Source: Gammaproteobacteria bacterium
Lineage (GTDB): Bacteria; Pseudomonadota; Gammaproteobacteria; DSM-16500
Length of the DNA stretch: 64,000 bases
Direction of reading: 5' to 3'
NCBI GenBank assembly: GCA_019634835.1
Contig: JAHCAO010000009.1
Coordinates: forward strand, 1-64,000
Below are positions 11,424 to 36,141 of the stretch, in pieces. The first letter of the stretch is position 1. Each line of letters begins with the position of its first letter. The translations under genes were made by a program, and so were the position numbers. A model generated the notes under the pieces. That model ran no database searches. It was not told the origin of the DNA and saw nothing but the letters and a program-made list of their open reading frames with translations.

Positions 11424-11434
11424 ATCGTGAACCT

Positions 11435-13315: not shown

Positions 13316-13344
13316 GTTTAGTCCTCACCTTCATCTATTCGATT

Positions 13345-16155: not shown

Positions 16156-16160
16156 AGTCG

Positions 16161-18337: not shown

Positions 18338-20111
18338 GAGATTTTCCTTTATCAATAAAATCTTTCATCTTGTCCTGAATACGCTGATTCAGTTTGCCTT
18401 CGTCTTCTATCGATTGTTTTTTTGCGATATCTTCATAAAATTCTTTAAAGTCAATTTGACTAAAATCAATTTTTTGCAATTCTTCAGTGGTCATTCCGCC
18501 ACAATCTGGGTGCTTAGCATCACCAAAATGTCGTCCGAGTTGCTTCTCTCTTCCTTGCTCCTGAACAATACGAGCGAGCTTGGTAGGGAACACGCAATAG
18601 ACTTTACGTTTTTTTAAACAAATACCAGCTGCACAATCATCACTGTATTGACCAACATAATGGGCTGTACCATTTTCTTTGGCTTTACCTAATTCTTTTT
18701 CTTCTTGAGAACAATGTAATAAGGGAAGATCATCAATCAACCAACCTTCATTTCGACAACAATTAGCTGCTCCCAAAATGACGTTATCGCAGTCTTTATC
18801 TTTGCCTTTGAATATGAAATTTTGGTCTAATTGTTTGGCAGCATCGGCCACAGCTGATAATGCAGAAACTGCTTCTTGAAAATCAGGATCGGCTTGTTTT
18901 TGGGTATTAACACAATCACCATCTAAGCAATACATTTTGCCATTGCATATTGCGCCCGTGACAGAACAATTTTTTGTTGGACAACGAAAAGTTTGTAGGT
19001 ATTTATTACATCCTCCGTCAGTACGATCTAAGCAAACTGAATTGATTTGCTCACAGCCTTGATCTCTTAAAGGTTTGCAAGCTCCACCGCCTGTGCCTGC
19101 GTTACCTAAACAACGGTAATTTGCTTCCTTTTCCCAACATTCTCTCGTAATTGGAATATTTTGAATAACACGGGTCGATTGAGGAATAACACATTGTTCT
19201 GTTTGAAATGTACAACTTGGAGTATTGGCCAACCCTAAGCATCCATCCTCCCAACGATCTCGCTGTTCGTAGGTAGTTGTTGAAGATACGATATCAATTT
19301 GGACATCTTTCCTGTGACCACCATTGATATGAAGCGTTAAGTTAAGCCCATTCCCACAGGCAGGAAATGCAATGGTATCAATGTTTGCATTGCCTGATTG
19401 GCTGATAATATTTCCACGTAATGACTTACAATCAATATTTTTTGGCAGCCGACCATCTAATCGAAAACTAGCATCGTGGGGTCCGAGGAAACTAATACTT
19501 CCATTCGTCGTATTGACCACCACACCAGCATAGTTATGATCATCAACCGATAGATGAGCGGTCAAAGTGTAATGAGTATCATTTTGATGTGGAATTAAAT
19601 CCACGTTAAGTGTTTTTTTACAATACTGCTGAATACTATCGGGTGTATCTTCACACTGCTTTTCTTCATAGGTCGTTGTACAAGATTCCTTCTTAGTGCA
19701 ATCAATAAACTCATCAGAAATACCTTTGACAATATCATCGGCATGATCTTGTATCTGACTGATACGTTTAATTTGATTTGCTAATGCTTCTTTATCAATA
19801 GACTTTTGATTTTCCGCTGCATGATTAACGGCCTTAGTCACTTCACTATTCGAGCTCGCTGAAGCGGCGTCTTCTTTAATAGTTGAACCAGATTGATCAA
19901 CGCCACCATAGTAGTTAGATTGATCTGGAGATTCGGTATAATTTTTGAATATATTTTTTGGTTCAAATTTTTTAAATATGTTTATTGATTGCTGTCTATG
20001 CTTAGCTGCTGCCGCTATCCCTTCTTCAAACGATTTATCATCTGCTTCTGCAAACGACATCGATAGCATACATATCAATACAGTTACTAAGCGTACTATT
20101 TTATGAATCAT
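18318..20111 (-). CDS. traN: TraN: cysteine-rich mating-pair stabilisation outer-membrane protein
   Basis: A 597-residue protein with a signal peptide (cleavage near SFAEADD) and many cysteines spread from about residue 135 to 530, including CRNEGW and CVFPTKLARIVQEQGR, the conserved TraN C-terminal segment. TraN is the outer-membrane adhesin contacting recipient cells. It overlaps traF on one side and trbC by four bases on the other. Confidence 0.93.
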   Translation of the reverse strand: MIHKIVRLVTVLICMLSMSFAEADDKSFEEGIAAAAKHRQQSINIFKKFEPKNIFKNYTESPDQSNYYGGVDQSGSTIKEDAASASSNSEVTKAVNHAAENQKSIDKEALANQIKRISQIQDHADDIVKGISDEFIDCTKKESCTTTYEEKQCEDTPDSIQQYCKKTLNVDLIPHQNDTHYTLTAHLSVDDHNYAGVVVNTTNGSISFLGPHDASFRLDGRLPKNIDCKSLRGNIISQSGNANIDTIAFPACGNGLNLTLHINGGHRKDVQIDIVSSTTTYEQRDRWEDGCLGLANTPSCTFQTEQCVIPQSTRVIQNIPITRECWEKEANYRCLGNAGTGGGACKPLRDQGCEQINSVCLDRTDGGCNKYLQTFRCPTKNCSVTGAICNGKMYCLDGDCVNTQKQADPDFQEAVSALSAVADAAKQLDQNFIFKGKDKDCDNVILGAANCCRNEGWLIDDLPLLHCSQEEKELGKAKENGTAHYVGQYSDDCAAGICLKKRKVYCVFPTKLARIVQEQGREKQLGRHFGDAKHPDCGGMTTEELQKIDFSQIDFKEFYEDIAKKQSIEDEGKLNQRIQDKMKDFIDKGKSHDVPQS

Positions 20112-20584
20112 ATTTTCGCCTCATTAAAGAGAGCAAGGGATTTTTTTGCAATCACTGAAACTCTATCTTCTTCATTTGCAATTTTTTTTAAGGCATAAGA
20201 TAAGGTGACGTCCCCATATACAATGTCGTAATCAAGCGTACAGCTCATGCCTGGTAAACAATTAGGTTCTTTTACAACTACCACAGCCGGTACTTTTACA
20301 ATTTGAAATCGTTGAAATAAAGTAGGATCAACTTGCACACCTCCTTGGTTATCTTTAGTTAGCACACTTATTTTATTGATGGTGTCTTTAAATGAATTAT
20401 TAATGAAACCACGTACCACAACAGGTGCATCAATTATTTTGGCTTCTCTCATCCATCCTTTCAAGCTTTCATCTGGCATGGAAAATGAAACGAAGATAAT
20501 GATATTTTTATCTAACATTTGGTTTGCATAACAAGGTGAAACCAGTATCAGGCTTAAGCAAACTAACAGTTTTTTTATATTCAT
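20108..20584 (-). CDS. trbC: TrbC: F-type pilus assembly protein
   Basis: A 158-residue periplasmic protein with a signal peptide (MNIKKLLVCLSLILVSPCYA) and the TrbC features FVSFSMPDESLKGWMREA and VDPTLFQRFQIVKVPAVVV. The start at 20584 is chosen for the signal peptide; the longer frame to 20653 would overlap the apparent tail of the preceding gene. The arrangement with traN and traU is that of F. Confidence 0.9.
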   Translation of the reverse strand: MNIKKLLVCLSLILVSPCYANQMLDKNIIIFVSFSMPDESLKGWMREAKIIDAPVVVRGFINNSFKDTINKISVLTKDNQGGVQVDPTLFQRFQIVKVPAVVVVKEPNCLPGMSCTLDYDIVYGDVTLSYALKKIANEEDRVSVIAKKSLALFNEAKI

Positions 20585-20600
20585 TATCTTCTCGTATTGA

Positions 20601-20684
20601 TTAGGACTTATTCTTTTTAAATGCTTCATCATAGTTAGGAAGCCATACACCATTTGTTTCGTGATAACGAAGGCGCGCAGCTTC
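20601..20684 (-). other. In-frame coding extension after the TGA of the upstream tra gene
   Basis: Directly after the TGA at 20687-20685 the same frame stays open for 27 codons (including YHETNGVWLPNYDEAF) to a TAA at 20603-20601. That TAA is 16 bases before the trbC start, a normal operon spacing. The stretch looks like protein rather than spacer, which suggests the TGA interrupts an originally 207-residue gene. Confidence 0.55.
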
Positions 20685-21224
20685 TCAGCTCTTTCTATTG
20701 TCTGATTCGTTTTTTAGTTTATTTTGTAGTTGTCTTGATTTGTCTTTTCTGGCGTCTTTTTCTAATTGCTTTGTTCGCAAATCATCCATGCGTTTTCCAT
20801 TCTCTTCAAACGCATCGGCAGCTTGATTTGCAAATGCTTTATGCGCTTCCCACATTTTATCTGGCATTTCAGCGAATTTTTTATCAAATTCCTTTTGCTG
20901 CTCTGCCATCTGACTTTGTGAATTTCGAATAAAATTTAAGTTTTCCTGCATCCCTCTATCGACTGCTTCATGAAATTCATTTTGTTTTTGTTCGAAAGAT
21001 TTGCTCCACTTACCTGCGTCTTTTTCTGATTCAACGATTTTGTTATGAATACGTGCTTGATCTTGATTGAATTGGTCATTAAAACGATTCATCGTTTGCT
21101 GAAATTTATTAAAATAACTCCACATAATGAATTCATCTATCATCCAATTTGCAGCGACAAAGATTAAAAAAATGACCGCTATTTTTTTGAAATTAAGATC
21201 ATTAACTAAATTATTAAAATTCAT
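20685..21224 (-). CDS. Membrane-anchored coiled-coil protein of the tra operon, possibly shortened by an in-frame TGA
   Basis: A 179-residue protein between traU and trbC. Residues 13-33 form one membrane segment (IAVIFLIFVAANWMIDEF); the rest is a charged glutamine/lysine/glutamate-rich helix typical of a periplasmic coiled coil. I do not recognise an F counterpart. The reading frame continues for 27 more plausible codons after the stop (see 20601-20684), so the gene may carry a nonsense mutation near its 3' end. Most of the coiled coil is retained, so it may still function. Confidence 0.75.
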   Translation of the reverse strand: MNFNNLVNDLNFKKIAVIFLIFVAANWMIDEFIMWSYFNKFQQTMNRFNDQFNQDQARIHNKIVESEKDAGKWSKSFEQKQNEFHEAVDRGMQENLNFIRNSQSQMAEQQKEFDKKFAEMPDKMWEAHKAFANQAADAFEENGKRMDDLRTKQLEKDARKDKSRQLQNKLKNESDNRKS

Positions 21225-21245
21225 GACTCTCTCCTTATGTTAAAT

Positions 21246-22235
21246 TTACGCAGCACAGCAATTTCTTTTTCGCCACACGAGATAACCAAAGTCTTCACCT
21301 TTAAATGGGTATTCATGTGCGGCCTCCCACGTGATCGTGGTTGCACCAAATGGATGACAACCGCCACTACCCGTCGTAGGAACGGGGTTAGTCATCTGGT
21401 ATCGATAACGAGATTTAGGAATAATGGGAGATGGATAGGTTTGACAAAGCGCAGGGCCATCCACTCCGATGCTATCCCATAACAGTCCTTCTCGGTGCAT
21501 TTTATATGCCATTCTTTCCGTGAGGAGTGTACTCGCTTGCGCACCACCAACATGTTCTTGTACTGTCCCTGTTAGTGGATACATGGAACCTTGTGAGCCC
21601 GCGCACCAGAACAATAAATCCAATGGTCCGTAAGTTGACGCCGCTAAACTGTCAGCTGCGCAAGCAGCTTGTGCGATCGGATTACCAAAGAGGATAGCTT
21701 CAGGATTTAAGATAAAGCCCCACTCTTCATCTCGCCACGTAGGATCAAGCTCTGTGAGGTAGGCAATGTCCATATCCCCTGTTTCGAGGCAGAGCCCATC
21801 CGTGATCAGTTTCAACCAGAATAACAGCGGAAAATGATACCAATGCACATGGTAAAAACTGTTGTTCTGACTACTATTTGCTGTTTCTTGCGCGCCAATA
21901 CCAAAAGAAGATCCCATATTCAGTTGTAGACCACCTAAATTAACCATGCAGAATGGAAGGCGTGTAACATCAACCAGGGCTATTGGTTCCCAAAAGCCTG
22001 TGGTGACTCCAACCCGAGGAAGCGGAGTCTGGCAATAACAAACTGGACTGCTTGGGTTAGAAGAATTATCCGCGGTATTGCCTTTAAATATTGCTACGCT
22101 CCCAATGGTGATGGGGAACAAACAACTCCAACAAACATCTGTAATTGGATTAACAAATGATCCTTGGCATAAACTGCCAGCAATAGCTGAGGAAAAGTAA
22201 AAAATTGAAAACATCAGGCACAAGAAAGCTCTCAT
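21246..22235 (-). CDS. traU: TraU: pilus assembly / DNA transfer protein
   Basis: A 329-residue periplasmic protein with a signal peptide (to SSAIAG) and the TraU signature of cysteine pairs: VNPITDVCWSCLFPITIG, CYCQTPLPRVGVTTGFWEP, and a C-terminal ...RKRNCC. TraU is needed for DNA transfer and pilus function in the F system. The gene overlaps traW by four bases. Confidence 0.95.
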   Translation of the reverse strand: MRAFLCLMFSIFYFSSAIAGSLCQGSFVNPITDVCWSCLFPITIGSVAIFKGNTADNSSNPSSPVCYCQTPLPRVGVTTGFWEPIALVDVTRLPFCMVNLGGLQLNMGSSFGIGAQETANSSQNNSFYHVHWYHFPLLFWLKLITDGLCLETGDMDIAYLTELDPTWRDEEWGFILNPEAILFGNPIAQAACAADSLAASTYGPLDLLFWCAGSQGSMYPLTGTVQEHVGGAQASTLLTERMAYKMHREGLLWDSIGVDGPALCQTYPSPIIPKSRYRYQMTNPVPTTGSGGCHPFGATTITWEAAHEYPFKGEDFGYLVWRKRNCCAA

Positions 22236-22885
22236 GGCGTTACCTCCGCAATGATTAATTCCATGCCATCTTGATAAACAACGGAGGGAACTTGGGTAAT
22301 ACGAAACGTTGTTGTTAACCTTCCTTGTTGATCAAAATAGATCGGTTGATGAAATGTTTTTTCTTGTTCAATGATAGAGCCATTTACTAAAATTAGCTTT
22401 GTTTTTCCATCGAATTTTTTATTTATTTGTTTGACCCATTCAACTTGTTCTTTATCATCACCGTCATAAAAAACTAAAGTTGTATGCAACTTTGTAAATG
22501 ATAATGGATTGATACGAGTACCTGCTTTAGCAAACACATTGCCATCTGTATCTTTTAAATCGTATGGCAATAAAATTGAAGGATCGTACCGCCAGGATTT
22601 AGCAATAACTGTTCGATGAATATTAGAAATTGCTGGATGACGGTCTATCTTCTTAGCAATTCTTGTTTTAGCTTGATCCTGCAATTTTTTCCAATCACCA
22701 TTTTGTTGCATGATAACTAGTCTATTTTGAATAAATTCCAATAAATCCGTTTCTATAATCGGATAAATCTTTCCTACCACACCCAAATCTTTGGCAAAGG
22801 AGTGCGAAGATAAAATGAGGTATAAAGCAACAAAAATAAATTTATTGCATGCACACCATTTTGAATTAAATAATCTATTGATCAT
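22232..22885 (-). CDS. traW: TraW: pilus assembly protein
   Basis: A 217-residue exported protein. After the signal peptide (ending SHSFA) it begins KDLGVVGKIYPIIETDLLEFI, the conserved TraW start, and ends with TTTFRITQVPSVVYQDG. The start at 22885 follows AGGA by eight bases and overlaps the trbI stop by 11 bases; the longer frame to 22975 lies inside trbI. Confidence 0.92.
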   Translation of the reverse strand: MINRLFNSKWCACNKFIFVALYLILSSHSFAKDLGVVGKIYPIIETDLLEFIQNRLVIMQQNGDWKKLQDQAKTRIAKKIDRHPAISNIHRTVIAKSWRYDPSILLPYDLKDTDGNVFAKAGTRINPLSFTKLHTTLVFYDGDDKEQVEWVKQINKKFDGKTKLILVNGSIIEQEKTFHQPIYFDQQGRLTTTFRITQVPSVVYQDGMELIIAEVTP

Positions 22886-23276
22886 TATTTTCATCCTGAT
22901 GCTTTTGAATAATGGATTGAACTTTTTTCTTAATAACAAATGTATAATCTTGACTGCCAGCAAATACGGCCTCACTCGGCATTAAAAGTAGATTATTTTC
23001 TTTGGAAAATTGCTTTAATGACTTCTCTAAAATCACACCAAATTGCTTCGTCTCTCTCGTCAAATCATCTTGTGATTTATTTTGTTTGGACTCATTTTTG
23101 ATAAACTCATTGACGATAGCTGTCACATTCACAACTGCTATTTTTTGTGGTTTAGGAGCAGTCATATAAAAAATTGTAAAGATAACCATACTTCCTAACA
23201 TGCCAAATAAAAAAGAATAAACATGATTGACGGAAAATAAATGATTAGCTTTAGATACAATTTGATTAATTTGCAT
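22875..23276 (-). CDS. trbI: TrbI: inner-membrane pilus retraction protein
   Basis: A 133-residue protein with one membrane segment (about 20-38) and a periplasmic part beginning KIAVVNVTAIVNEFI and ending with a charged helix, as in F TrbI. TrbI affects pilus extension/retraction. It overlaps the traC stop by 11 bases. Confidence 0.85.
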   Translation of the reverse strand: MQINQIVSKANHLFSVNHVYSFLFGMLGSMVIFTIFYMTAPKPQKIAVVNVTAIVNEFIKNESKQNKSQDDLTRETKQFGVILEKSLKQFSKENNLLLMPSEAVFAGSQDYTFVIKKKVQSIIQKHQDENNDQ

Positions 23277-25767
23277 GTGTAAATTTCTCCGCTACTTTGC
23301 TAATGGCATCACGTAATGAGTAGCCTTGTTTTTGCAATGAATTAACCGCATCAAATTCTTCGCCTTTTGAGGAGTACAGAATCCGGGAATATGGATCAAG
23401 AATAATGCGATGGACTGAACTTCCCGATGGGCCTTTAATAATGCATTCAGAATATTCATCGGTTTTGCGTAAGGATTTATACATTCGCTCAATCATAGGA
23501 TTCATCGCAAAGCGATCTTTTTTCTTCAGTTGATCAATCGCTTCTTCGGTTTGTCCTAAAACAATTTTAAAGTCGCAATTATCAAAAACAGCGGTGGTGG
23601 TGCTATTTTCAAAATAATCATTAATAGATTGAGCAACAGCAACTAGGCTCCCTGTAAAACGTCTAACGGTACGAGCGCACTCTTCAATAAAATCACTCAT
23701 ACCATCGCTTTTACCTTTAAAATGCTTCCAAATTTCTTCCAAGATTAATGTTTTAGTTTGTGTTCGATTGCCAAGATACATAACTTGACTGACCTGAAAC
23801 ATTAATAACATCATGACAATCCGTCGTAACACTCTCATTTTTTCTAGTGCTTGCAGCTCTAAAACTATAAATTCTTTATCAAGATTGATATTAGCCTCAC
23901 CTTCAAAATATCGACCATACATACCCTCTTTAGTAAAGGGATAAAGCAAATGAGAAAGGTCTTGGCATGCTTTTGCATCTTGTTTTTTTAACCAATTGGC
24001 AACTGTGGTGACTGTTGTTTTATTCCCATTCTCATGCCAGGCAGCTTTAATGGATTTTTCGAGATATACATTTTCCTCATCCGTGACACCACTTGTTGGT
24101 CTTGCCATAGCTGCCATCAGCGGCTTTAGCAATTCCAGTGATTCATCAAAATTTTTAATGTGAGTAAATGGGTTTAAACAAATAGGAACGTTAGGAGAAA
24201 ACTCGATAAATGTACCTTGTAACTCTCTACAGGTTTTTTCGTAAGAACGGCCAATATCAATGACCCAAACTCGACCACCTGATCCTAATAAACCTGTAAT
24301 ATAATCTTGCGTAAAAACAGACTTACCCTTCCCACTGGCAGCCGCAATGGCAATATTGTAATTACCTTCTTTGTTATCAAAGGGACTAAAACCAGCCACT
24401 TGTCCTCTTCTGCCAGGCAAAAGCAATATGGGTGTTTCTGTACCTTTATATTCACCTATTATCGGCGAGACATTCACTGCATTAAAAGCAGTCATTGTTC
24501 TTAAACGCCCGAATTTTTTCATGTCTTCAAACATTCCTTCCGTCATTCTGAATGGTAAGCAAGAAAGAAATGATTGAAATTGAAGATAAGAAGTTTTTTT
24601 AAGTGTCCATCCATTTGCTTGATATAAATCTCTGACTTTTCTTTCTGTGCCAGGCGCATCTTTCTCTTTCGAAAAGAGAATTAAATTACAGGATGTTTTA
24701 ACTATTTTATCGCCTTGTGATAATCGCTCTCTTACAAATTGAATGTCATAATATTTTTTTGAAATATAAGACATCAAATCATCATCTGACGTGTTTTTTG
24801 CATTTTGTTTCGTATCATAAGATTTAACGAGATTTCCGAATGATTCCTTTTCCTGGTTCATCATTCGGATGGTGAATGAAAATAAAAATGAAGAGGGTAT
24901 TTGTCTTGATATGTTATAAAGTTGCCCTATTGCATCTTCCATTTTCCATAACACAGGCTTTTCTGGATATTCTTTAATTGATAACGCTCGTGCTTCCCAC
25001 ACCTCATCATTATTTTCCATTTTTAAACTGTTTTTATTGATGTGGGTGCAAAACTCAGGATCAACTAATTGTGTCGTCAATGAATCATACTGATTCCACA
25101 TTTGCTTTGTTGGATAGACATCTGTAGAAGGATGCAGGATACCATTCATCACACTAATAAAGTCTTCAACAGTTAATGATCGTGTTGCAATTTGAATCGA
25201 TAATAATGAGCTTGAAATATCTTCTTTCAACCTGATTAAGTCATTCGCAAAATCTTGTTCTTGTTTTGCAGGAATTGAAACACAGATAAATAATCTAAAA
25301 TTTCGTAATACGAATATACCTTGTTGCACTAAGCTTTTATAAGCACCTTTTTTCAAATAATCAGTACGCTTTTTAGCAAGCCATTCAAAAATTTCACCTC
25401 TTTTGGAGCGCTCTGTTTCAAATTGATCTAAAATATGGCCTATCTTGTCAGAGCCCCAGAGTATAAATTGCAAATCAGCGTGGCTAGGTAATATATCAAT
25501 AATAATGCTTGATAAAATAGTCGCAGTTTCTTCGCTAGCGCCCAATAATAAAGAGGCTTCTAAGATAAATCCCTGGCTGTTTTTGTTATAGTAAATTCCT
25601 GTATCACGATCATATCCATCAAAATGTAAGATGCTATTTAGTGCTCCAAAATCCAGTGTTTGATGGAACCGATTGATATCAGCATCATGTGGTACAGAAC
25701 CAAATGAGGTTTTATCTCCCACCCATTTAGCGACTCTATTACCCATTTCAGTTATTTGATCAAACAT
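23266..25767 (-). CDS. traC: TraC: VirB4-family secretion ATPase
   Basis: An 833-residue cytoplasmic ATPase. Walker A (AASGKGKSVFTQDY) is near residue 476, with the VWVIDIGRSYEK strand behind it; Walker B (TLILEEIWKHF) is near 677; the final third (YSECIIKGPSGSSVHRIILDP) is typical of TraC. It powers F-pilus assembly. It follows traV by four bases. Confidence 0.95.
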   Translation of the reverse strand: MFDQITEMGNRVAKWVGDKTSFGSVPHDADINRFHQTLDFGALNSILHFDGYDRDTGIYYNKNSQGFILEASLLLGASEETATILSSIIIDILPSHADLQFILWGSDKIGHILDQFETERSKRGEIFEWLAKKRTDYLKKGAYKSLVQQGIFVLRNFRLFICVSIPAKQEQDFANDLIRLKEDISSSLLSIQIATRSLTVEDFISVMNGILHPSTDVYPTKQMWNQYDSLTTQLVDPEFCTHINKNSLKMENNDEVWEARALSIKEYPEKPVLWKMEDAIGQLYNISRQIPSSFLFSFTIRMMNQEKESFGNLVKSYDTKQNAKNTSDDDLMSYISKKYYDIQFVRERLSQGDKIVKTSCNLILFSKEKDAPGTERKVRDLYQANGWTLKKTSYLQFQSFLSCLPFRMTEGMFEDMKKFGRLRTMTAFNAVNVSPIIGEYKGTETPILLLPGRRGQVAGFSPFDNKEGNYNIAIAAASGKGKSVFTQDYITGLLGSGGRVWVIDIGRSYEKTCRELQGTFIEFSPNVPICLNPFTHIKNFDESLELLKPLMAAMARPTSGVTDEENVYLEKSIKAAWHENGNKTTVTTVANWLKKQDAKACQDLSHLLYPFTKEGMYGRYFEGEANINLDKEFIVLELQALEKMRVLRRIVMMLLMFQVSQVMYLGNRTQTKTLILEEIWKHFKGKSDGMSDFIEECARTVRRFTGSLVAVAQSINDYFENSTTTAVFDNCDFKIVLGQTEEAIDQLKKKDRFAMNPMIERMYKSLRKTDEYSECIIKGPSGSSVHRIILDPYSRILYSSKGEEFDAVNSLQKQGYSLRDAISKVAEKFTHAN

Positions 25768-25771
25768 GATA

Positions 25772-26170
25772 TTACTCTCCGTTTACATCCATTTCTTTTA
25801 GTGGCGCACCGATCCATGATCCAGGTTTAGTAATGGTATAAATGTCACTTTCCTGATGATAATTGCCTTCCTTATCTTCAAACGGTGCAACCCAAACGTG
25901 CATGACTATTTCGCTATATCGGAGAGGCTCGCCTTTTTTAAATGGACTAAATCTTGAATAAGATGAATGTTTATAAGAAATCGGTTGTATAATTGATGTA
26001 GTTGAAAGAGTTGAACCACCACCTATTTCGCCTCGATCAACCCGTGCATTAACACTATCAATGCTTTCACATCGAATACCTGTTTTCATCGGGCAATCAA
26101 ATTGTGAATTAATACCTGAGCATCCATTTAATAATGTGGATAACAAAATTAATAAGGTAACTTTTTTCAT
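25772..26170 (-). CDS. traV: TraV: outer-membrane core lipoprotein
   Basis: A 132-residue lipoprotein with signal MKKVTLLILLSTLLNGC (lipobox LLNGC, Cys17) and the further cysteines (C26, C34) that are conserved in TraV (FDCPMKTGIRCESIDSV). It forms the outer-membrane core of the channel with TraK and TraB, like VirB7. Confidence 0.9.
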   Translation of the reverse strand: MKKVTLLILLSTLLNGCSGINSQFDCPMKTGIRCESIDSVNARVDRGEIGGGSTLSTTSIIQPISYKHSSYSRFSPFKKGEPLRYSEIVMHVWVAPFEDKEGNYHQESDIYTITKPGSWIGAPLKEMDVNGE

Positions 26171-26183
26171 TTATACTCTCCCA

Positions 26184-27548
26184 CTAGGATGTTGTTTCAC
26201 TCACTCTTAATCCCAATTCTTTACTTCTTTCTTGCAGTAATTTCACTTGGTTCTCTGACAACGGCAGTGCTCTTTCATCTGAAGTTGGGAATACTCTCGT
26301 TGTTTTTTGAGTCTGCTGTGTATCAAACATGTTGGGAATGTTTGCAGCTTCCTTTTCATTTTCATCGTGTTTCTTACCATCCAGATAAAAACCTTTGAGA
26401 AATACAACATCAACCACTGTACCTGCACTTAACTGAACAACAGGTTGAAATTGTTCGGCGCGTTTGATGTTATAATCAGCAAGCTTATCCATTGCTTTAC
26501 TACTGCCTTTCGCACCACCATATTGCAAAATTTTTGAAGAATTAACTGTTTCAACATTGCCTTGTGGTGAAACTGAATTGATCGTGTAATTTTGAGCAAA
26601 CCCTTCCGATACCCCTTGTAAAAATCCTGCACCAAATGCACGCGCAGCATATTGACCGCCACCTTCGCGTAGATTTCCACGGATACCATTTTTGCCATCT
26701 CCGCCGGCAACATTCCCTTCCACAGCGAGATCAATTACTTCTCCATTAGGTGCAACGCAGCTCATACGCTCAGTTCTAATCTTTCCTCTCTCGGAGGAAA
26801 TATCACCGGATGCTGCTGCGGTAACGACACAATCTTTAAGGTGGCTATGATGTCTATTTGGCAATGTTCCATTTTCAGTTATGCGTATTAGCATTGGCTC
26901 TGGATTGGATTGAGCGGTGACAGCAGTAGAAGCATCTGCTCCCTCAATGACAACGCCCTGGACAAATGTACCTGCTGGAACATACGTATCAGGATTTTTA
27001 GGCGGACGACGTTTTGCCAGTTCTTCCGACGTCGGTGAAAGTGAGAGTCGGTCTTCTCTCATGCCTGCTGCTTCACCGTTCTCCTCATGGTTTAGATTTG
27101 ATGCAGAACGGGGCAACACTCTACCTTGATATTGTTGGCTTCCCACTAACTGAGAGGAAGGACCATCAGAAAAATTTTGATTATTATTCTTATTTGCGCT
27201 TAATTTAGCCTCTAAAGCTTTAAGGCGATTTTCTAATTCCTTTTGTTTACCTTCATCCATGGATAAATTTGAACTTAGTTTTTCATCAAACTGCTTTTTT
27301 AATTTTTCTGTTTGCGCTCTTGCCTCACTCACACTTCGTTGCACTCGTTCAAGTACCACTGTCTCAGAATCAGCATGATCTAATGGATTTGAAAAATTGG
27401 TTTTTTCAACAATCTTCTCATCATTATTTTTTTGATTTGCTAACATGAATACAAATATTCCGAAGATAGCCATGATAGCAACGACAAATATCATCAAATT
27501 TCTAAATTGATCTGATTTTGCTTTATTTGTTGCAGTATTATCATTCAT
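26184..27548 (-). CDS. traB: TraB: VirB10-like scaffold
   Basis: A 454-residue bitopic protein: one membrane segment at about 18-37, a coiled-coil/linker region (70-115), and a C-terminal VirB10-like domain (TYVPAGTFVQGVVIEGADAS ... RGNLREGGGQYAARAFGAGFLQG). It spans both membranes and links TraC energy to the outer-membrane TraV/TraK ring. It overlaps traK by eight bases. Confidence 0.94.
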   Translation of the reverse strand: MNDNTATNKAKSDQFRNLMIFVVAIMAIFGIFVFMLANQKNNDEKIVEKTNFSNPLDHADSETVVLERVQRSVSEARAQTEKLKKQFDEKLSSNLSMDEGKQKELENRLKALEAKLSANKNNNQNFSDGPSSQLVGSQQYQGRVLPRSASNLNHEENGEAAGMREDRLSLSPTSEELAKRRPPKNPDTYVPAGTFVQGVVIEGADASTAVTAQSNPEPMLIRITENGTLPNRHHSHLKDCVVTAAASGDISSERGKIRTERMSCVAPNGEVIDLAVEGNVAGGDGKNGIRGNLREGGGQYAARAFGAGFLQGVSEGFAQNYTINSVSPQGNVETVNSSKILQYGGAKGSSKAMDKLADYNIKRAEQFQPVVQLSAGTVVDVVFLKGFYLDGKKHDENEKEAANIPNMFDTQQTQKTTRVFPTSDERALPLSENQVKLLQERSKELGLRVSETTS

Positions 27549-28260
27549 GACTAACTACCCTATACAATAGTGTTTCATCACCACAGTTAAGCGTTTCATC
27601 AACTAATGAAGCAGCACGAGTATTCGCCTGATAAAATTCTTGTGGAAGAAGATTCATACGATGATTTGAATTATTTTTTAATCGCCAAATTTCTCCCTCT
27701 AAATAACTGCCACGATAAATTATCAATAATTGCATGGTGAGACTAGAAGAAAGCCTCTTTGGTTTAACTTCACCTAATGGTATGACTGCATAACCTTCAG
27801 GATGTTGTTCCTTAACCATTTGACGCATTAATTCAATAATCAATTGTGTATACGACTGGTTTGTTTCCCACGCAGAAGCTACTCGTTTTGAAGCGGATAT
27901 CGGTTTGATCGAAACATTTTCAGCGGGTACATCAATTGGATTTAAAAACAGCGTGTAAGTATGACCTTGCTCAGTGGTAATAAAAATTGAAAATGGCCTT
28001 CTTTGATAATAAAAACTAGGTTTAAGATATAAAATCCCTTGATCATACTTACCATTAAACTCTTTTATTTCATAAGTATTATCTTTTCCTTTGACAGATA
28101 TAATCCGATCACCTGTCACAAAAATTCTTGTGAATTCTCTTGCTGATATTTTAAAGAAAAGTGTTTCATTATCTTTTGCCGCTTTTGCTTGCAAAGCAAA
28201 TGAGTTAGTAAACCCAGATAGACTTATTAATAATAAAAATATTTTTATGGTTTTACACAT
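27541..28260 (-). CDS. traK: TraK: secretin-like outer-membrane core protein
   Basis: A 239-residue exported protein; signal peptide to about FALQA, then the TraK/VirB9-like beta-rich domain (ISAREFTRIFVTGDRIISVKG; TYTLFLNPIDVPAENVSI). It forms the core complex with TraV and TraB and overlaps traE by eight bases. Confidence 0.92.
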   Translation of the reverse strand: MCKTIKIFLLLISLSGFTNSFALQAKAAKDNETLFFKISAREFTRIFVTGDRIISVKGKDNTYEIKEFNGKYDQGILYLKPSFYYQRRPFSIFITTEQGHTYTLFLNPIDVPAENVSIKPISASKRVASAWETNQSYTQLIIELMRQMVKEQHPEGYAVIPLGEVKPKRLSSSLTMQLLIIYRGSYLEGEIWRLKNNSNHRMNLLPQEFYQANTRAASLVDETLNCGDETLLYRVVSHE

Positions 28261-28816
28261 GAGGTTTTACCTCTTCAAAAGATTTAACCTGTAGAAGCCC
28301 CAAATGGTAAGTAAATCTCATTTCATAGGTGAGATGCTTAATGGGTAGTTGTGTTTCACCAACTGTGTATTGAACATCGCCAGAAATTTTTGCAATAAAT
28401 TTAGATGAATCTACTTGTAGGTCAGTTAACTGAAAACTCATTGTCATATGTTCTTTTTTAAGGCGAACTTCTTGTGAAATAAGATCAGTTTTAAATTTAT
28501 CGTAATAGCGTGAATCCACATATCGAAGAAATAATTGATGTTTCATCGCTGCATTGCTTGGAGTGATATTTAACAATAGATCACTTAAAAACAGATTCAT
28601 TCCTGATAAATATTCTGCTGAAACCTCTTTAGCTGAAATCCAAAATGGTTTATCAACTACAGGTGGTATAAAATGTATCTTTTCATTATTACTCACTGTA
28701 TTGATGTAAATTCCGAAAAGAATATTCACAGCAATGGAGCCCATAGCAATCATCAAATAACTATTACGTTTTTCAGTCAGATGTTTAATTCTTGCTTTCT
28801 GTAATATTCTTTTCAT
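28253..28816 (-). CDS. traE: TraE: VirB5/B8-like transfer protein
   Basis: A 187-residue protein with one membrane segment (about 21-40) and a periplasmic domain with the TraE signature (DKPFWISAKEVSAEYLSGMNLFLSDLLLNITPSNA). Required for pilus assembly. Gene spacing to traL is four bases. Confidence 0.93.
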   Translation of the reverse strand: MKRILQKARIKHLTEKRNSYLMIAMGSIAVNILFGIYINTVSNNEKIHFIPPVVDKPFWISAKEVSAEYLSGMNLFLSDLLLNITPSNAAMKHQLFLRYVDSRYYDKFKTDLISQEVRLKKEHMTMSFQLTDLQVDSSKFIAKISGDVQYTVGETQLPIKHLTYEMRFTYHLGLLQVKSFEEVKPHV

Positions 28817-28820
28817 GGCA

Positions 28821-29111
28821 TCAACCTAATATTTCACGCATGTGTGATGGTGGCGTTGAACGGAAATTAATGAATTTTGGGAAATACCAATATGCCATGT
28901 GATATATGAAATAATGTCCTTCTTGTCCCTTTAGCTTCTTGATTAAGGCTACAGAACAAGCGCCTATTACTAGCCCATATAAAGGAGAATTAAATATCAG
29001 TAACGCTAGAAGAAATGCACCAACTAGAGCGATGACTTCATCTATAGTGAAATAGGCTATTTTATAAGATTCATCTAAATATCGGGGCATATAGGTTTTA
29101 TCTATTTGCAT
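28821..29111 (-). CDS. traL: TraL: inner-membrane pilus assembly protein (VirB3-like)
   Basis: A 96-residue protein with the TraL N-terminus (MPRYLDESYKIAYFTIDE) followed by a hydrophobic region of two membrane segments and a short C-terminal tail. Its start codon abuts the traA stop. Confidence 0.93.
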   Translation of the reverse strand: MQIDKTYMPRYLDESYKIAYFTIDEVIALVGAFLLALLIFNSPLYGLVIGACSVALIKKLKGQEGHYFIYHMAYWYFPKFINFRSTPPSHMREILG

Positions 29112-29887: not shown

Positions 29888-30784
29888 TCATGCCAAATCA
29901 CCTCTGTTTTTTTTGCTTAGAATATGCGTCCTGCTCTTTTTGAGAACGATTCCCTCATCCTGTATTTCGATATTTGCCTCCTTGTACATGACAGTGACAA
30001 TACGGAGCGATCTTAAAAATTCTCGTTTAAAATCTCTCAATCCTTGTGCATTATTTGCGTAGTTCGAACCAAACTGATTGCTCAAAAGATTCCAGGGTAT
30101 AAGCGTTGATTTTTTAAGGTATGAAAAGCGATATGTCAGCCAACCATAAATATCCATTTGAAGCGGTGAACGTCGCAATGCCTGGAACATACGCAGGTCA
30201 ATGGGCACTGGACGATTAATAAGTTCGTCGAAGAAGTCCTTTGCTAAAATAATGGTTGATTGTTTCGATATTTCGCCATTTTCATGTTGAATGGGACTCC
30301 ACCATAGCTCAAAAGAACGGGTAATCATAAACTGATCAGTCTTGCACACGCCTTGCTTTCTATTTTCATAAATGCAAGAAACTTGCGTCGAGAACAATTT
30401 AAGCATTTGTTCACGCAGCCGCGTGGCATCACCTCTTGTGCCCCCACTTTGCGATAACTTCAATGTAGAAAGGAACGCTGAAAAACTCTTGCCCAGTTCC
30501 AGAACTGGCGATTTCTTTACTTTCGCTTCACGTGTCATCCACGCCAATAATATGCGTGGGTAAGAGCCATATGGCAGCCCAAATTTAGGATTGCCAATCA
30601 TGGTTAGCGTAAAATCACCATTTACACGTTGAAATACATTACCGTCCGGTTTGCTATGTGGTAGCGTCGCCATCACCATGGCACGCGCCATATAAGCTAG
30701 CATGCCAGCTTCCTTAGCACTTTCTGCTTCAATGGCTAAGCATTCAGAAACAAGTTTATTGATTCTCGAAGATGACTTAATCAT
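29888..30784 (-). CDS. repA: RepA: plasmid replication initiator (RepA_C type)
   Basis: A 298-residue protein matching the RepA family of broad-range proteobacterial plasmids: VFQRVNGDFTLTMIGNPKFGLPYGSYPRILLAW in the N-terminal half, FSAFLSTLKLSQSGGTRGDATRLREQM in the middle and PVPIDLRMFQALRRSPLQMDIYGWLTYR near residue 200 (winged-helix DNA-binding part). It binds iterons to open the origin. The iterons lie immediately after its stop codon. Confidence 0.9.
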   Translation of the reverse strand: MIKSSSRINKLVSECLAIEAESAKEAGMLAYMARAMVMATLPHSKPDGNVFQRVNGDFTLTMIGNPKFGLPYGSYPRILLAWMTREAKVKKSPVLELGKSFSAFLSTLKLSQSGGTRGDATRLREQMLKLFSTQVSCIYENRKQGVCKTDQFMITRSFELWWSPIQHENGEISKQSTIILAKDFFDELINRPVPIDLRMFQALRRSPLQMDIYGWLTYRFSYLKKSTLIPWNLLSNQFGSNYANNAQGLRDFKREFLRSLRIVTVMYKEANIEIQDEGIVLKKSRTHILSKKNRGDLA

Positions 30785-30916: not shown

Positions 30917-32290
30917 ATGATGCTTACATTCAATGATGAAAGAACTGGATTAGTAAAAACAAATTGGGACAGCGTAAGAAACCGTGTACATAAGGTTGCC
31001 CCTGAGTTTGCAAAGTTAATTGATAAACTTTCTCCTGATAAGAGCTTTAACTTATATTTAGCTTATTTCCCTTACGGTGAATTGATTGGAGATACTGTTA
31101 GTCCTTTTCTTCCTATGGTAGATGGAGGTAATTATCGTTTATCAGATCCCAATGCTCCTAAAGATGTTATAAAAAATTTAGGTTATGGACAGAATAGCTC
31201 TCCATTAGGCATGTTATTAGAAAAATCGCTAGAATATTATATTGACCTTAAAAAGTTAGATATTTCCATCCCATGGCAAGTCTATTCGCCAGGTTCTTTT
31301 TATCCATTAGCCAGATTTCTTACAAATAAATCCGGAAGAATCTATAGTCCAAATGGTTTATTAACAGTGGTATCAGGAACACGTTCCGCATTTATGCTGC
31401 CTAAAATTGGCAGCAGCCCAAACCATTTAATGCTAAGAAGGCACTATAATAATGTTCGACCCAAACCGCCCAAAGACCTTTCTGAGCATTGGCAAGTCTT
31501 TAAAGATATAGTAAATAGTAATCATAGTAAAAATGATTGGCGCTCTTGTGTTCTATATTTCTCCCAGAAATGGGTTGATAAAATCCATCATGACAATGAG
31601 TGGGCACCTGTTAAAAATTTCTTTCTGGAATTAGCGAGCCATAAATTTGAGTATGAAAAAAATCAGATTTATTACAACATTGCGTATTCTTTAATTCAAT
31701 ATTCAAACAATCTTAAACCTAACCCATATCTTATAGATACTGCCTGTCATTTATTCGCTATTGGAGCAGGCGCAGTTCCAGGTTACTCCCCAGCAATTGA
31801 CGATCATTCGCTTCCTTTAGATTTATTGCAAAACGCCTTTGTTGAGAGCTATGGTTTAAAAAAGTATATCCCTACAATCATGCAGCCTCACCATTTCAAT
31901 TTTGAAGATATTCTCACTAAACCAATTTATTATTCCTTAAATCATCCAAGTACTTTGTCTTTTTCTCCTAAATCAAGGAAGGATTCAAGTACATTATTTG
32001 AAATGGATGAACTCATGCATATTGTCAATATTTTTCAAAAGGAATTATCTCACGATAACAATATATTATCTGATACAGTGATTTCTCAAATCGCGAAAAA
32101 TGTAGACTTTAATTTTTTTCATAACAGAACCTCAACTCACGATAATATTCTGGATTCTGAAACTATTATTAATTTTGATCCGCGCTTCTCACAAAAGAAT
32201 ACTAAATGTTCTGCACCTGAATCCATATTCTCAAGCGATGCGCCATTTTTACGGGGATGTATTGGGATAAAAGTAATATCAAAAAAATAA
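30917..32290 (+). CDS. Unrecognised 457-residue protein
   Basis: A soluble 457-residue protein that I cannot place in a family. It has no signal peptide or membrane segment. Visible segments include FNLYLAYFPYGELIGDTVSPFLP, IPWQVYSPGSFYPLARFL and SPNHLMLRRHYNNV. AGGTGGG directly precedes two in-frame ATGs (30917, 30920). It is transcribed towards the borosin operon and its stop is two bases from the methyltransferase stop, so the genes are convergent and no shared function is implied. Confidence 0.75.
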   Translation: MMLTFNDERTGLVKTNWDSVRNRVHKVAPEFAKLIDKLSPDKSFNLYLAYFPYGELIGDTVSPFLPMVDGGNYRLSDPNAPKDVIKNLGYGQNSSPLGMLLEKSLEYYIDLKKLDISIPWQVYSPGSFYPLARFLTNKSGRIYSPNGLLTVVSGTRSAFMLPKIGSSPNHLMLRRHYNNVRPKPPKDLSEHWQVFKDIVNSNHSKNDWRSCVLYFSQKWVDKIHHDNEWAPVKNFFLELASHKFEYEKNQIYYNIAYSLIQYSNNLKPNPYLIDTACHLFAIGAGAVPGYSPAIDDHSLPLDLLQNAFVESYGLKKYIPTIMQPHHFNFEDILTKPIYYSLNHPSTLSFSPKSRKDSSTLFEMDELMHIVNIFQKELSHDNNILSDTVISQIAKNVDFNFFHNRTSTHDNILDSETIINFDPRFSQKNTKCSAPESIFSSDAPFLRGCIGIKVISKK

Positions 32291-32292
32291 AA

Positions 32293-33084
32293 TTATGAAT
32301 TAATATTGTTTAGCTTATTAACATAAAATTCATTTGGTTCTTTTACTTTGTTAGGTGGGATATATAAAGTCGTTAGTGAAGATACCGGAGATTGAGGTAA
32401 ATCAGCTAACACAACTTCTTCTATGCTGGGCTTGCATGAAGGGTATTGGGCAGCTTCATATAAAAATACTGGGTGTTGCTCGGAATATTTTTTTAATAAA
32501 TGTTCTGTAAGTATTTCAAGACCATTTTTTGGATCCTGCTCTTGATAATTGGTTTTTATTCCAATCATACCAGCCTGCCATAAAATTAAATGACAGCTTG
32601 TATCGTACTCCCTATCATAGATTAAAAAATCCGTAGCCTCATACGATTGACAGCCACATGAACTAGGATCAATCAACAAATCAGCAAGCATACAATCTTC
32701 GGATGATATGCCAGGCAATACGTATGTATTATGCCCGTTCTTGGTAGCTAAATTGACGGAATAGATACTCGGTTCAGCTAAAAATGTTGGATGTCCATAC
32801 ATCACTAAACATAGAACTTTGGTTTTTTCTAATGCCTTAAGAACATATTCTGAGATTAAAAGATAATTTTGGTTTCTTGGAAGATTGGTATCGTAAAGAA
32901 AATCTAAGGATTCGCTATTCGGGTTTGCAGTCTCAATCCATTCTTTCATAGCCGGTTCATTTACTAAGTAAAGAACATAATCGGCTTTCTCAATACTTAC
33001 TTTTGCCTCAGTAGTAAGATGAGATAGAAATTTAATTCCTGCTCCCACCACTATCAGAGTATTTTTCATTACAAACGCATTCAT
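32293..33084 (-). CDS. Split-borosin alpha-N-methyltransferase
   Basis: A 263-residue stand-alone tetrapyrrole-methylase-fold SAM enzyme. Compared from memory with Shewanella SonM and fungal OphMA it keeps the glycine loop VVGAG (12-16), R70, Y74 and Y96 with the same spacing as the OphMA catalytic R72/Y76/Y98, the YGHPTF motif (96-101), PGISSEDCMLADLLIDP (124-140), LILWQ (166-170) and the C-terminal LYIPP clamp region. Borosin enzymes methylate backbone amides of a precursor. OphMA is fused to its peptide; here the peptide is a separate 59-residue gene ending immediately before this ATG (TAAATG). A start at M6 (33069) is also possible. It could be another tetrapyrrole-type methylase, but the motif set and neighbour make borosin the best reading. 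Confidence 0.85.
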   Translation of the reverse strand: MNAFVMKNTLIVVGAGIKFLSHLTTEAKVSIEKADYVLYLVNEPAMKEWIETANPNSESLDFLYDTNLPRNQNYLLISEYVLKALEKTKVLCLVMYGHPTFLAEPSIYSVNLATKNGHNTYVLPGISSEDCMLADLLIDPSSCGCQSYEATDFLIYDREYDTSCHLILWQAGMIGIKTNYQEQDPKNGLEILTEHLLKKYSEQHPVFLYEAAQYPSCKPSIEEVVLADLPQSPVSSLTTLYIPPNKVKEPNEFYVNKLNNINS

Positions 33085-33264
33085 TTAATAAGTGGTTACT
33101 CTTGTCATATCAGCGTTCAATTTGTCATTAGATAAAAATTCTTTTATTTTATTGCCATCACCATTAGAGAGCGCCTCTTGTACTGAGCTTGGTAAATTAT
33201 CTATTTTCTTTTGTTCGCATGGAAGTGAGTTGGCTATTTCTTGTAACGAATTAATGATGTTCAT
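33085..33264 (-). CDS. Split-borosin precursor peptide (59 aa)
   Basis: A 59-residue gene translated by hand. It has the strongest ribosome site of the operon, GGAGG seven bases before its ATG. The ATG overlaps the transporter stop (ATGA), and its TAA abuts the methyltransferase ATG. The protein has helices around residues 5-20 and then LPSSVQEALSNGDGNKIKEFL, which matches by eye the borosin-binding domain of SonA (LTDEQINAVMTGDMEKLKTL). The last residues, NADMTRVTTY, are the candidate core: threonine, valine and tyrosine residues whose backbone amides could be methylated. There is almost no follower after them. Function inferred from position and this resemblance. Confidence 0.75.
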   Translation of the reverse strand: MNIINSLQEIANSLPCEQKKIDNLPSSVQEALSNGDGNKIKEFLSNDKLNADMTRVTTY

Positions 33265-34742
33265 ATTTTAACCTCCGATTTGCTTTTGCCAGAACCTAAT
33301 TTAAAATTATTTCGTACAATAACCAATTGATTATATATGAAAATACTTAGGGTAAGAATAAATAGTCCTGTGCATATAATAGTTATATTTTGCTGTATAT
33401 TTACTAGATTTTGATCAATAAGTCCATTTTTATTGATATAGGGTAGCAGTAAAGTATTAGAGATCGATGTTGCCAGTAAGGCTCCAATACCAATATTCAT
33501 GCTCCAATAACCCGTCATCATTGCTCGCATCGATGAGGGAATTAATTCTCCAATTAACGAGTCACCAATTGGGCTAACAAAAATTTCTCCTATTGCGAGC
33601 ATTACTAGACACCCTAACATAGACCAGGCGGGAATTTTTAAATTTGAAATTTGTGAAAAACCACCTAATAAAATCAAAAGAGCAAATATGCAGAATGTAA
33701 AAGCTAATACAAAATAGCTGATATTATTCATCCCACTTTTTGTCTTGGATTTACTTTTATTCATTAGTATTGCTAAAACAGGAGCTATCATTAATATTAT
33801 GATGGCATCTGCATTCATAAACCATTGTGGGGCTAATGTTATACCGACAATATTTCTTTCAACATCATGATCGATTAATTGCATAAATGCGATTGGTGTC
33901 AGCATATACAGTGACCAAAAGAGTATAGTCAATGTCGAATAACTTATAAATTTAAGGTATTTAATTCTCTCATCGATGTTAATTTTACTGTATCCATAAC
34001 AAACAAGACATAACATTCCTGATATTGTTATCCATGTTATATATTTCTCTGTCACTGCTGCGAATTTAAGCAGAAAATTAATAAGTAATACAACTAATGT
34101 AAGTAATAACGATGTACTCAGTAACTGATTTATATTAGATTTTTTATACTTGATACTTTGATTATCGGTAATGAAAAGTAACGTCAGGCCTATTGATATG
34201 GCAAGAAGCACTCCCATAAACATGAATAGATTAGTGTAGCTATTATGGTTGGTAGAGTAACCAGATATAAAATAGCCCATTAAAAACCCAGCATTCATGC
34301 CTGCGTAACTCCACATAAACGCTGCTCTTCTTTCCTTTACTTGACTCTCGTCAAAAAGGTCCGTTATGAACATTTTCAAGCAAACGTTTGTGACTAAACT
34401 ACTCATCAAAAACAGAGATAACCCAAGATAAAGATTATTTCCAAATGCTAATATCGAACATCCTGCCAAACTTAATAATGTTCCTAAACAATATAATTTT
34501 TTACACGAAATTAGAGTATTTGCTATTGAACCGCCAATGAACGGTAAAAAATAATTCAGTGATAAAAACAATCCTGTTATTAGGGTTGCTGAATATTCAG
34601 AATGAATCTCTTTTTGAGTCAAATATAAAGATAGCCCTGAAAAGAAAACAGCAAATGCAGCTGATGAGCTTATTTCAATAAAGAAAATTGCTATAATTTG
34701 ACCAATAATACTATTTTTAGTACTACTTATATATTTGCTCAT
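33261..34742 (-). CDS. POT/MFS-type peptide transporter of the borosin operon
   Basis: A hydrophobic protein of about 493 residues with around 12-14 membrane segments. The segment AIGEIFVSPIGDSLIGELIPSSMRAMMTGYW matches the conserved late helix of proton-dependent oligopeptide (POT/DtpT-like) transporters; the family ExxER motif of helix 1 is degenerate (FFIEISSSAAF). The start at 34742 is preferred because the longer frame (to 34811) begins inside an iteron. AAAGGA lies 12 bases upstream, so initiation is not certain. Its stop overlaps the peptide start, so the peptide is translationally coupled to a transporter; it may export or import the peptide or its products. Only 124 bases separate it from the rep stop, so readthrough from rep is possible. 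Confidence 0.8.
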   Translation of the reverse strand: MSKYISSTKNSIIGQIIAIFFIEISSSAAFAVFFSGLSLYLTQKEIHSEYSATLITGLFLSLNYFLPFIGGSIANTLISCKKLYCLGTLLSLAGCSILAFGNNLYLGLSLFLMSSLVTNVCLKMFITDLFDESQVKERRAAFMWSYAGMNAGFLMGYFISGYSTNHNSYTNLFMFMGVLLAISIGLTLLFITDNQSIKYKKSNINQLLSTSLLLTLVVLLINFLLKFAAVTEKYITWITISGMLCLVCYGYSKINIDERIKYLKFISYSTLTILFWSLYMLTPIAFMQLIDHDVERNIVGITLAPQWFMNADAIIILMIAPVLAILMNKSKSKTKSGMNNISYFVLAFTFCIFALLILLGGFSQISNLKIPAWSMLGCLVMLAIGEIFVSPIGDSLIGELIPSSMRAMMTGYWSMNIGIGALLATSISNTLLLPYINKNGLIDQNLVNIQQNITIICTGLFILTLSIFIYNQLVIVRNNFKLGSGKSKSEVKI

Positions 34743-34802
34743 ATAAGAACCATATCCTTTCAAACTTTCGGTGTAACCGACTAGAAAATAAAATATTCTC
34801 AT

Positions 34803-34853
34803 ATCCCGCAAACGTCCGAGATATTAAGTGGAAATTTCTATCCTGTAAACGTC
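34803..34853. repeat. Two iterons downstream of the Rep_3 gene
   Basis: The minus strand carries GACGTTTGCGGGAT (34816-34803, identical to a copy at 38771) and GACGTTTACAGGAT (34853-34840, one mismatch from the copy at 38792). They belong to the same family as the six-copy array at 38674-38805, on the opposite strand and at the other side of rep-parB-parA. Confidence 0.8.
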
Positions 34854-34866
34854 CGTTTTTGACAGA

Positions 34867-36141
34867 TTAGTTATATTCATATAAATACTCATCAAAACTT
34901 AAAATGTTTAGCTTGTTGCTTGCTTCCGTGTTTTTAATAAACATATTGAAAATAGCTTTAACAGCTGCATGAGCTAATCCATGCTTTTTATACTTAGTCA
35001 ATGCATATGAATCACACACTTGCTCAAATTCACTAAGCAGTCGATTTTTTTCATCGTCCGCCAAAGATGAAACATAGTTTTCTATCAGATCACTCACATA
35101 CTTGTTATATTTATTTTTCTGCTTTTCTTGAACTAACTTTTCCTGCTTTTCACTTTCCAAACGAGTATCACGTAATTCTGTTATAACTGCTTTGCTTGAT
35201 CTACTCTTTTTATAATCTCTTTTTAGAGCGTCAACAAAATAAGCAGCAAGATCACGAATTTTCCCACTTTTAAAATTCTCTGAATTTTTAATTAGATCAA
35301 TCTTTCCTTGAATATAGTCATGTTCATATTTTGCTAAAACATCTTTAACAGATTCGGGTGACAATCCAAATATTTCTGTTAATATTTTAATCAGTTCAAG
35401 ATCATTTGCTTCGTTAAAATGTTCTACATGAAACGTTGCGCTTTGTTTTGTAGACAACTTGAACCTAATACTTGTGACTTTCTTGTTTACACGCTGCATC
35501 TCAGGGGAAACATTCAAATGCGAATACAGGTTAACTTCTCTTAATGCAATATCCAAAACTCGTTTTTTAAAATCACAAAATTCAGGATAGCGTCCATCGG
35601 GAATACCCATTAGTTTCCTAAAAATCGCTAATGACAACCATCCAGTTGTAGATAGCCCTTGAAATCGAATGCAATTTTCATAAAGTGCCAGACCATATGC
35701 AGATTTGAATTTCGTCATTAAATTCATATCAATCTTGCCGTACATTTCAGGATGGTAAAGCAACTCTCTCATAACTGAACTAAACTCATAAGTGCAAATC
35801 CCTTTCTCTATTTTTGCAGATGCAATAATAGAGCTTGCTCTCCACTTAGATGAATCGCTATCTGTGCTATCAAGAACATTCCATTCAATTGCTGTTGTTA
35901 TAAGCCCTATCAATGAGTTCTTTAATTTTTTTTGGTCATTGCTGTCGTAGCCAATTAATTCAGCTAATAATTTAACAGAAATCTCGTACTGTGATTTTTT
36001 AGGTAAATCATGATAAGCATTGTATAGAAGGGCATTAAATACCTTACGCTGGACAAGCGATATATTGTTTGATGAATGTATCGCATTGACATGTTTTTTA
36101 ATCTCTACAACATCGCTATCTTGCTTTTTAGGTAATGCCAT
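34867..36141 (-). CDS. Rep_3-type replication initiator
   Basis: A 424-residue protein of the initiator Rep superfamily (RepB/RepE type). The first winged-helix part reads NNISLVQRKVFNALLYNA...YEISVKLLAELIGY and the second GLALYENCIRFQ...LSLAIFRKLMGIPDGRYPEFCDFKKRVLDIALREVN, the usual family signature. The C-terminal 150 residues are an extra charged helical region. AAGGA stands seven bases before the ATG, and TATTAT just downstream of an 18-bp palindrome is a likely -10, so the palindrome is a candidate autoregulation site. This is the second initiator of the window. Confidence 0.85.
   Translation of the reverse strand: MALPKKQDSDVVEIKKHVNAIHSSNNISLVQRKVFNALLYNAYHDLPKKSQYEISVKLLAELIGYDSNDQKKLKNSLIGLITTAIEWNVLDSTDSDSSKWRASSIIASAKIEKGICTYEFSSVMRELLYHPEMYGKIDMNLMTKFKSAYGLALYENCIRFQGLSTTGWLSLAIFRKLMGIPDGRYPEFCDFKKRVLDIALREVNLYSHLNVSPEMQRVNKKVTSIRFKLSTKQSATFHVEHFNEANDLELIKILTEIFGLSPESVKDVLAKYEHDYIQGKIDLIKNSENFKSGKIRDLAAYFVDALKRDYKKSRSSKAVITELRDTRLESEKQEKLVQEKQKNKYNKYVSDLIENYVSSLADDEKNRLLSEFEQVCDSYALTKYKKHGLAHAAVKAIFNMFIKNTEASNKLNILSFDEYLYEYN

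Follow-up and report, generated by a model that had tools for sequence, protein, structure and literature searches.

The window, by which we mean the whole 64,000-nucleotide stretch analysed here (contig JAHCAO010000009.1, positions 1 to 64,000, of the gammaproteobacterial assembly GCA_019634835.1), contains what is probably a split-borosin cassette, in which a short precursor peptide and a borosin-family methyltransferase are encoded as separate proteins. Three genes follow one another on the reverse strand, in the order transporter, precursor, methyltransferase: a POT-like transporter (33261..34811; 516 amino acids from a TTG at 34811, 493 from an ATG at 34742), the 59-amino acid precursor (33085..33264), and the alpha-N-methyltransferase (32293..33084; 263 amino acids, or 258 from an ATG at 33069). 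A first-pass annotation, made from the sequence alone, had proposed a split-borosin operon at 33085..34742. This range includes the precursor but leaves the methyltransferase outside. The layout it described is the one found: the TGA of the transporter overlaps the ATG of the precursor (ATGA), and the TAA of the precursor directly abuts the ATG of the methyltransferase frame. A fourth gene had gone unnoticed. It lies at 30917..32290 on the forward strand, convergent to the others, and encodes a protein of 457 amino acids that we call the partner.

The methyltransferase, whose database entry (P0001, 258 amino acids) begins at the second methionine (33069), has 795 homologues in a protein search. 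We compared it with the PDB using phmmer and obtained 26 matches with E-values up to 10, of which the best 25 are borosin-family chains (8e-44 to 2e-37), including OphMA chains (8e-44), SonM (3e-39), and MroMA chains (2e-37); the 26th is an enolase (E = 1.9). The family search thus places the enzyme with the borosins and not with the cobalamin or sirohaem methylases. Its matches to Pfam TP_methylase (3e-12) and to NCBIfam YabN (1e-13, far under the cut-off of that model) are much weaker. The three residues singled out in the first-pass annotation, R70, Y74, and Y96, align with their OphMA counterparts and are spaced by 4 and 22 residues, as are R67, Y71, and Y93 of SonM, and the YGHP motif is present. 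R70 and Y74 occur in all 28 aligned methyltransferases and Y96 in 27; the exception has a glutamate and is the copy encoded on contig C34 of the same genome. Judged by its sequence, the protein belongs to the borosin methyltransferases and has a core site that is slightly altered, to which we return below.

The precursor gene is translated as MNIINSLQEIANSLPCEQKKIDNLPSSVQEALSNGDGNKIKEFLSNDKLNADMTRVTTY. A GGAGG ribosome site (33272..33276, reverse strand) lies seven bases ahead of its ATG, just as annotated initially, and the predicted core, NADMTRVTTY, is at the extreme C-terminus (33088..33117, reverse strand). We built a profile from an alignment of 18 short open reading frames (ORFs) located directly ahead of such methyltransferases and tested it by leave-one-out against a file of 3,809 short ORFs. 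There were 14 tests for the 18 precursors, those of the closely related loci L011–L015 being removed together and tested via L011. The profile made without the window peptide ranks this peptide first among the non-training ORFs (E = 2.7e-12). The precursor left out came first in 11 of the 14 tests, second in those of L016 and L074, and fourth in that of L010, and the one of L011 had an E-value of only 0.1. Searched against the protein database, the full profile retrieves 43 family members, including some recorded under the names of several Legionella species. Four close metagenomic relatives are 76–83% identical to the precursor (one is a 39-amino acid piece), and all four retain the tail NADMTRVT(T/S)Y, with a single Thr/Ser difference. 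Residues 24–45 of the leader are also well conserved among them, the N-terminus less so. Tails of the family carry a DM(S/T)(H/R)V-type motif. Its wider form, [DE]x[STRN][HRTAVK]V, which was picked with the data in view and tallied over sequences that are related to one another, is present in 33 of the 43 members versus 1.9% of shuffled tails, and it is doubled in 19 of them (e.g., DMSHVIPFxDMSHV). On this evidence, the peptide gene is real and its core appears to be under constraint, as part of the leader, which is equally conserved, would be. One precursor homologue with the doubled core of the Legionella type (P0260) comes from a 621-base contig labelled Pseudomonas aeruginosa, probably through contamination or mislabelling.

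The transporter matches Pfam PTR2 with 61.6 bits (cut-off 27) and MFS_1 with 60.2 bits. Proton-coupled POT peptide importers have an ExxER motif. This pattern is absent from three of the four POT-like proteins tested (those of the window, pLLO, and L070) and present in the fourth (L069), which is why we call the protein of the window only POT-like. Among eight transporters tested, the closest to it is the oligopeptide symporter encoded near YcaO/TfuA on Legionella longbeachae pLLO (E = 9e-51), and five MFS proteins from other cassettes do not match it.

The partner has no sequence match in Pfam, NCBIfam, or the PDB. Structure models (predicted local distance difference test [pLDDT] of 88, and of 93.7 for the C-terminal domain) show an N-terminal domain of the cyclic-nucleotide-binding type, as in CRP/FNR regulators, and a C-terminal domain (about residues 246–457) whose model has no PDB match with an E-value under 3; among the matches listed, none is to the winged helix with which such regulators bind DNA. 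Four residues of the C-terminal domain stand out by their conservation among 62 family members, namely D421 (62 of 62), H402 (60), S340 (58), and C448 (57), and H402, D421, and C448 are found in all 17 partners from borosin loci. Neither Pfam nor NCBIfam recognises a peptidase domain in any of the four cassette genes.

The cassette recurs. We collected methyltransferase loci of Aquicella, Legionella, and their relatives, 22 in all: three from the genome of the window, 10 from other genomes (including L005 and L006), eight from contig records, and one from a plasmid. All but one are the window or were found in methyltransferase searches, made with the window protein or with a profile of close relatives; locus L105 came from the partner search. 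This set represents the Legionella/Aquicella side of the family, not borosins in general. Of these loci, 21 have a transporter and 20 the partner; the profile recognises a precursor in 19 (18 of these precursors had built the profile, that of L105 had not). The only locus without a transporter, which also lacks the partner, has a broken enzyme, and in the second locus without a partner the contig ends inside the transporter. Three loci lack a recognised precursor, and one of them (L067) is truncated by the end of the contig. In L126, about 3 kb separate the enzyme gene from the partner gene. The partner gene is convergent to the transporter, precursor, and methyltransferase in most loci, and the transporter comes first in the window, in Legionella israelensis, and in L010 and L016. 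The L. israelensis plasmid carries the same four genes as an independent copy. Across 36 genomes of the order, the enzyme occurs in nine, and in all nine the partner is encoded on the same contig at most about 3 kb away.

A POT-like transporter as first gene had been regarded initially as foreign to the familiar split borosins. As a slot it is a regular part of the cassette, and only its POT-like kind is uncommon: by best reference match, 19 of the 21 transporters are MFS-like (Pfam MFS_1 confirms five of them) and two are POT-like (window and L126). Because both kinds occur, and because the five MFS proteins do not match the transporter of the window, the slot seems to be interchangeable.

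Among the methyltransferases listed, 76 are on contigs of at least 3 kb, and 22 of these share their contig size with a listed partner. The matching of contig sizes drew on 120 listed methyltransferases and 120 of 421 partners. For the first 60 listed methyltransferases, 21 of 37 share a size with a partner; with shifted sizes, there are on average 0.7 matches and at most four. In the plasmid collection, the partner family is restricted to Legionella (eight records).

The genome of the window has three loci with precursor and methyltransferase: one in the window, a second on contig C34 with the full set, and a third on contig C18 (L026), which has an intact precursor, a broken methyltransferase, and neither transporter nor partner. 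The last is apparently decaying. Other arrangements were seen around the partner. Locus L105 has two partner genes in tandem (6997-9722) at one borosin locus. In six genomes (L109, L111, L116, L120, L127, and L138), a partner without a borosin enzyme adjoins a class I S-adenosylmethionine (SAM) methyltransferase that matches Pfam Methyltransf_25 or Methyltransf_11 with varying strength, below the cut-off in L116. A protein of about 144 amino acids recurs near the partner or the cassette in L027, L028 (7431-7865), L064, L065, L066, and L071; its copy in L028 has no Pfam or NCBIfam match, and the window has no match to it at an E-value of 1e-6.

The cassette lies in a plasmid-type setting. The contig has 90,930 bp, and no exact overlap was found between its ends. 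The initial annotation spoke of a conjugative plasmid, which agrees with an F-type conjugation region at 5406..29111 on the reverse strand (seven proteins recognised by Pfam: the TrwC relaxase, the TraD-like coupling protein, TraG, TraN, TraC, TrbI, and TraL) and with two replication proteins. These two differ and flank the cassette: a RepA-type protein at 29888..30784 (reverse strand; Pfam RepA_C, 3e-23) and, upstream of the operon, a Rep3-type initiator at 34867..36141 (reverse strand; Rep3_N, 6e-20, and Rep3_C, 1e-13). Their presence on both sides possibly reflects a plasmid cointegrate. The decamer GYAAACGTCC has four copies in the window, where 0.04 are expected. Two are between the Rep3 gene and the borosin operon (34808-34817 and 34845-34854) and two are inverted near 38.7 kb (38673-38682 and 38737-38746). 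The repeats upstream of the operon are possible Rep-binding sites.

The closest described counterparts are the type IV split borosins SonM/SonA of Shewanella oneidensis, which likewise consist of a separate methyltransferase of 263 amino acids and an adjacent short precursor with a C-terminal core (PMC8429565), and in which the arginine and the two tyrosines of the active site are equally spaced. The window differs from them by a leader without recognisable homology to the binding domain of SonA, by the aspartate at the position of SonM Y58, by a core with a (D/N)(M/E)(S/T/R)(H/R/T)V-like motif, and by the addition of a transporter and of the partner. The fused fungal borosins such as OphMA share the methyltransferase domain, whereas in the window the precursor and the enzyme are separate. 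The Bradyrhizobium plasmid p155_2 also carries a methyltransferase, which shares 39% identity and is preceded by a small ORF, but there a prolyl oligopeptidase adjoins the enzyme, and a TauD/TfdA-family dioxygenase is present as well. The thioamitide-like YcaO/TfuA clusters of F-type conjugative Legionella plasmids encode, near par and tra genes, a distant homologue of the partner (about 27% identity) and a POT oligopeptide symporter related to the transporter of the window. They use YcaO, TfuA, ThiF, ThiS, and an ATP-grasp protein where the window uses a borosin methyltransferase. A figure legend of an earlier study places ycaO and tfu genes at such Legionella transfer regions (PMC3218107).

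The sequences establish which family the enzyme belongs to, that the peptide gene is real and conserved, how the genes are ordered, and that the cassette has a plasmid-type setting and recurs in relatives. Both the family of the enzyme and the existence of a precursor family adjoining such enzymes support the split-borosin interpretation of the first-pass annotation. We therefore consider it likely that the tail NADMTRVTTY is backbone-methylated by the neighbouring enzyme, that the leader is then removed, and that the POT-like transporter exports the product. Peptide and enzyme would be made from the overlapping genes, a layout that is observed. By analogy with SonM/SonA and OphMA, the enzyme would act as a dimer onto which the leader docks, and would transfer methyl groups from SAM to the amide nitrogens around Thr-Arg-Val-Thr, proceeding in the N-to-C-terminal direction. 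The methylated tail would then be released from the leader and leave the cell, and we infer that the cassette transporter carries out the export. The ligand-binding-like N-terminal domain of the partner might gate the C-terminal one, which bears Ser340, His402, Asp421, and Cys448 and could cleave off the leader. With low confidence, the partner could thus be the missing processing factor that acts on the leader.

The same genes can be read as a plasmid-encoded signalling system, in which the POT-like transporter imports the mature methylated peptide and the partner is an intracellular receptor with its N-terminal domain as the peptide sensor. We find this unlikely, given that the transporter lacks ExxER, that the great majority of cassette transporters are MFS-like, and that the matches listed for the C-terminal domain point to neither a winged helix nor another solved fold, while its conserved residues could be enzymatic. 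We give slightly less credit to the idea of the partner as a self-protection or target-like protein, binding or inactivating a product that acts on competing bacteria. Plasmid-borne pairs of producer and protection genes are common, the partner gene is convergent and set apart from the operon, and the partner is tied to two different modification chemistries, as one might expect of a factor giving protection from exported peptides; but no peptide-modifying gene was recognised near most class-level copies of the partner, and there is no known activity. It is very improbable that the methyltransferase acts elsewhere, on a tetrapyrrole or another peptide, with the small ORF being accessory or due to chance. 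The TP_methylase domain and the weak matches to YabN would fit such a role, but the borosin enzymes are by far the best matches and the small ORF belongs to a conserved family tied to the enzyme.

Several observations weigh against the split-borosin cassette or the role given to its partner. The likeness of the leader to the SonA binding domain, which the first-pass annotation noticed by eye, does fall at the place indicated (VQEALSNGDGNKIKEF versus EQINAVMTGDMEKLKTL) and is the best local match, but it is not significant: hhalign aligns 17 columns with a probability of 0.75% (E = 0.075), and SonA is absent from the 15 PDB hits of the precursor profile. The tyrosine found in SonM nine residues before the arginine (Y58) is replaced by Asp61 in the window enzyme, hence the slightly altered core site. 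Aspartate occupies this position in 22 of the 28 aligned sequences and tyrosine in one, and we do not take this tyrosine as diagnostic of type IV split borosins. In SonM, Y58F lowers kcat 15-fold while activity remains, and Y71F lowers it 84-fold (PMC8429565). Of the loci in which the profile recognises no precursor, L027 and L126 have an intact enzyme, and the transporters are fragmented at several loci (L006, L030, L031, and L105). The partner gene, being encoded on the other strand, lies outside the operon. The partner occurs in 15 of the 36 genomes of the order, six of which have no methyltransferase, and in only one (L. israelensis) of 21 plasmid records with a relative of the methyltransferase. 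These records include Bradyrhizobium and Pantoea; their genes were tabulated for L. israelensis and read for L075. Since it was not found in the 20 other methyltransferase plasmids, borosin loci do not generally include the partner. At class level, a transporter was recognised in only nine of 37 stretches around partners, one of them via Pfam alone (Pfam was run on 19 of the 260 ORFs without a match). Finally, the case for a peptidase role of the partner is made by residue conservation only, without geometry.

Split borosins as such are known, and types 0 to X have been catalogued (PMC11395268), with types V to X credited to Cho et al. and Imani et al. (PMC11285071). The set of four genes appears to be new, and the partner is its most novel part. 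The literature searched contains no paper joining borosin and Legionella, and we did not find the Legionella/Aquicella cassette with its partner in print, the two works just named being outside the literature covered. Among the matches listed, no paper joins cyclic nucleotide-binding with backbone N-methylation or split borosins. A plasmid survey reports metabolite clusters on 34% of the Legionellales plasmids in its set, and the word borosin does not occur in its main text (PMC10434180).

The genomic context suggests, tentatively, a broader role for the partner. It may found a new class common to the peptide-modifying cassettes of Legionella-like bacteria, combining a ligand-binding-like domain with a C-terminal domain of new fold, and processing or answering to N-methylated (borosin) or thioamidated (YcaO/TfuA) peptides on F-type plasmids with interchangeable transporters. 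To our knowledge, most split borosins have no known transporter, leader protease, or function. In relatives of Legionella, the recurrent set of four genes offers candidates for transport and one further step; a single genome has up to three loci, and two of the copies lie on contigs of plasmid type. A conserved family without assigned function thereby acquires a genomic context, and the presence of the same family in YcaO/TfuA clusters raises the question of what handles backbone-modified peptides once they have been modified.
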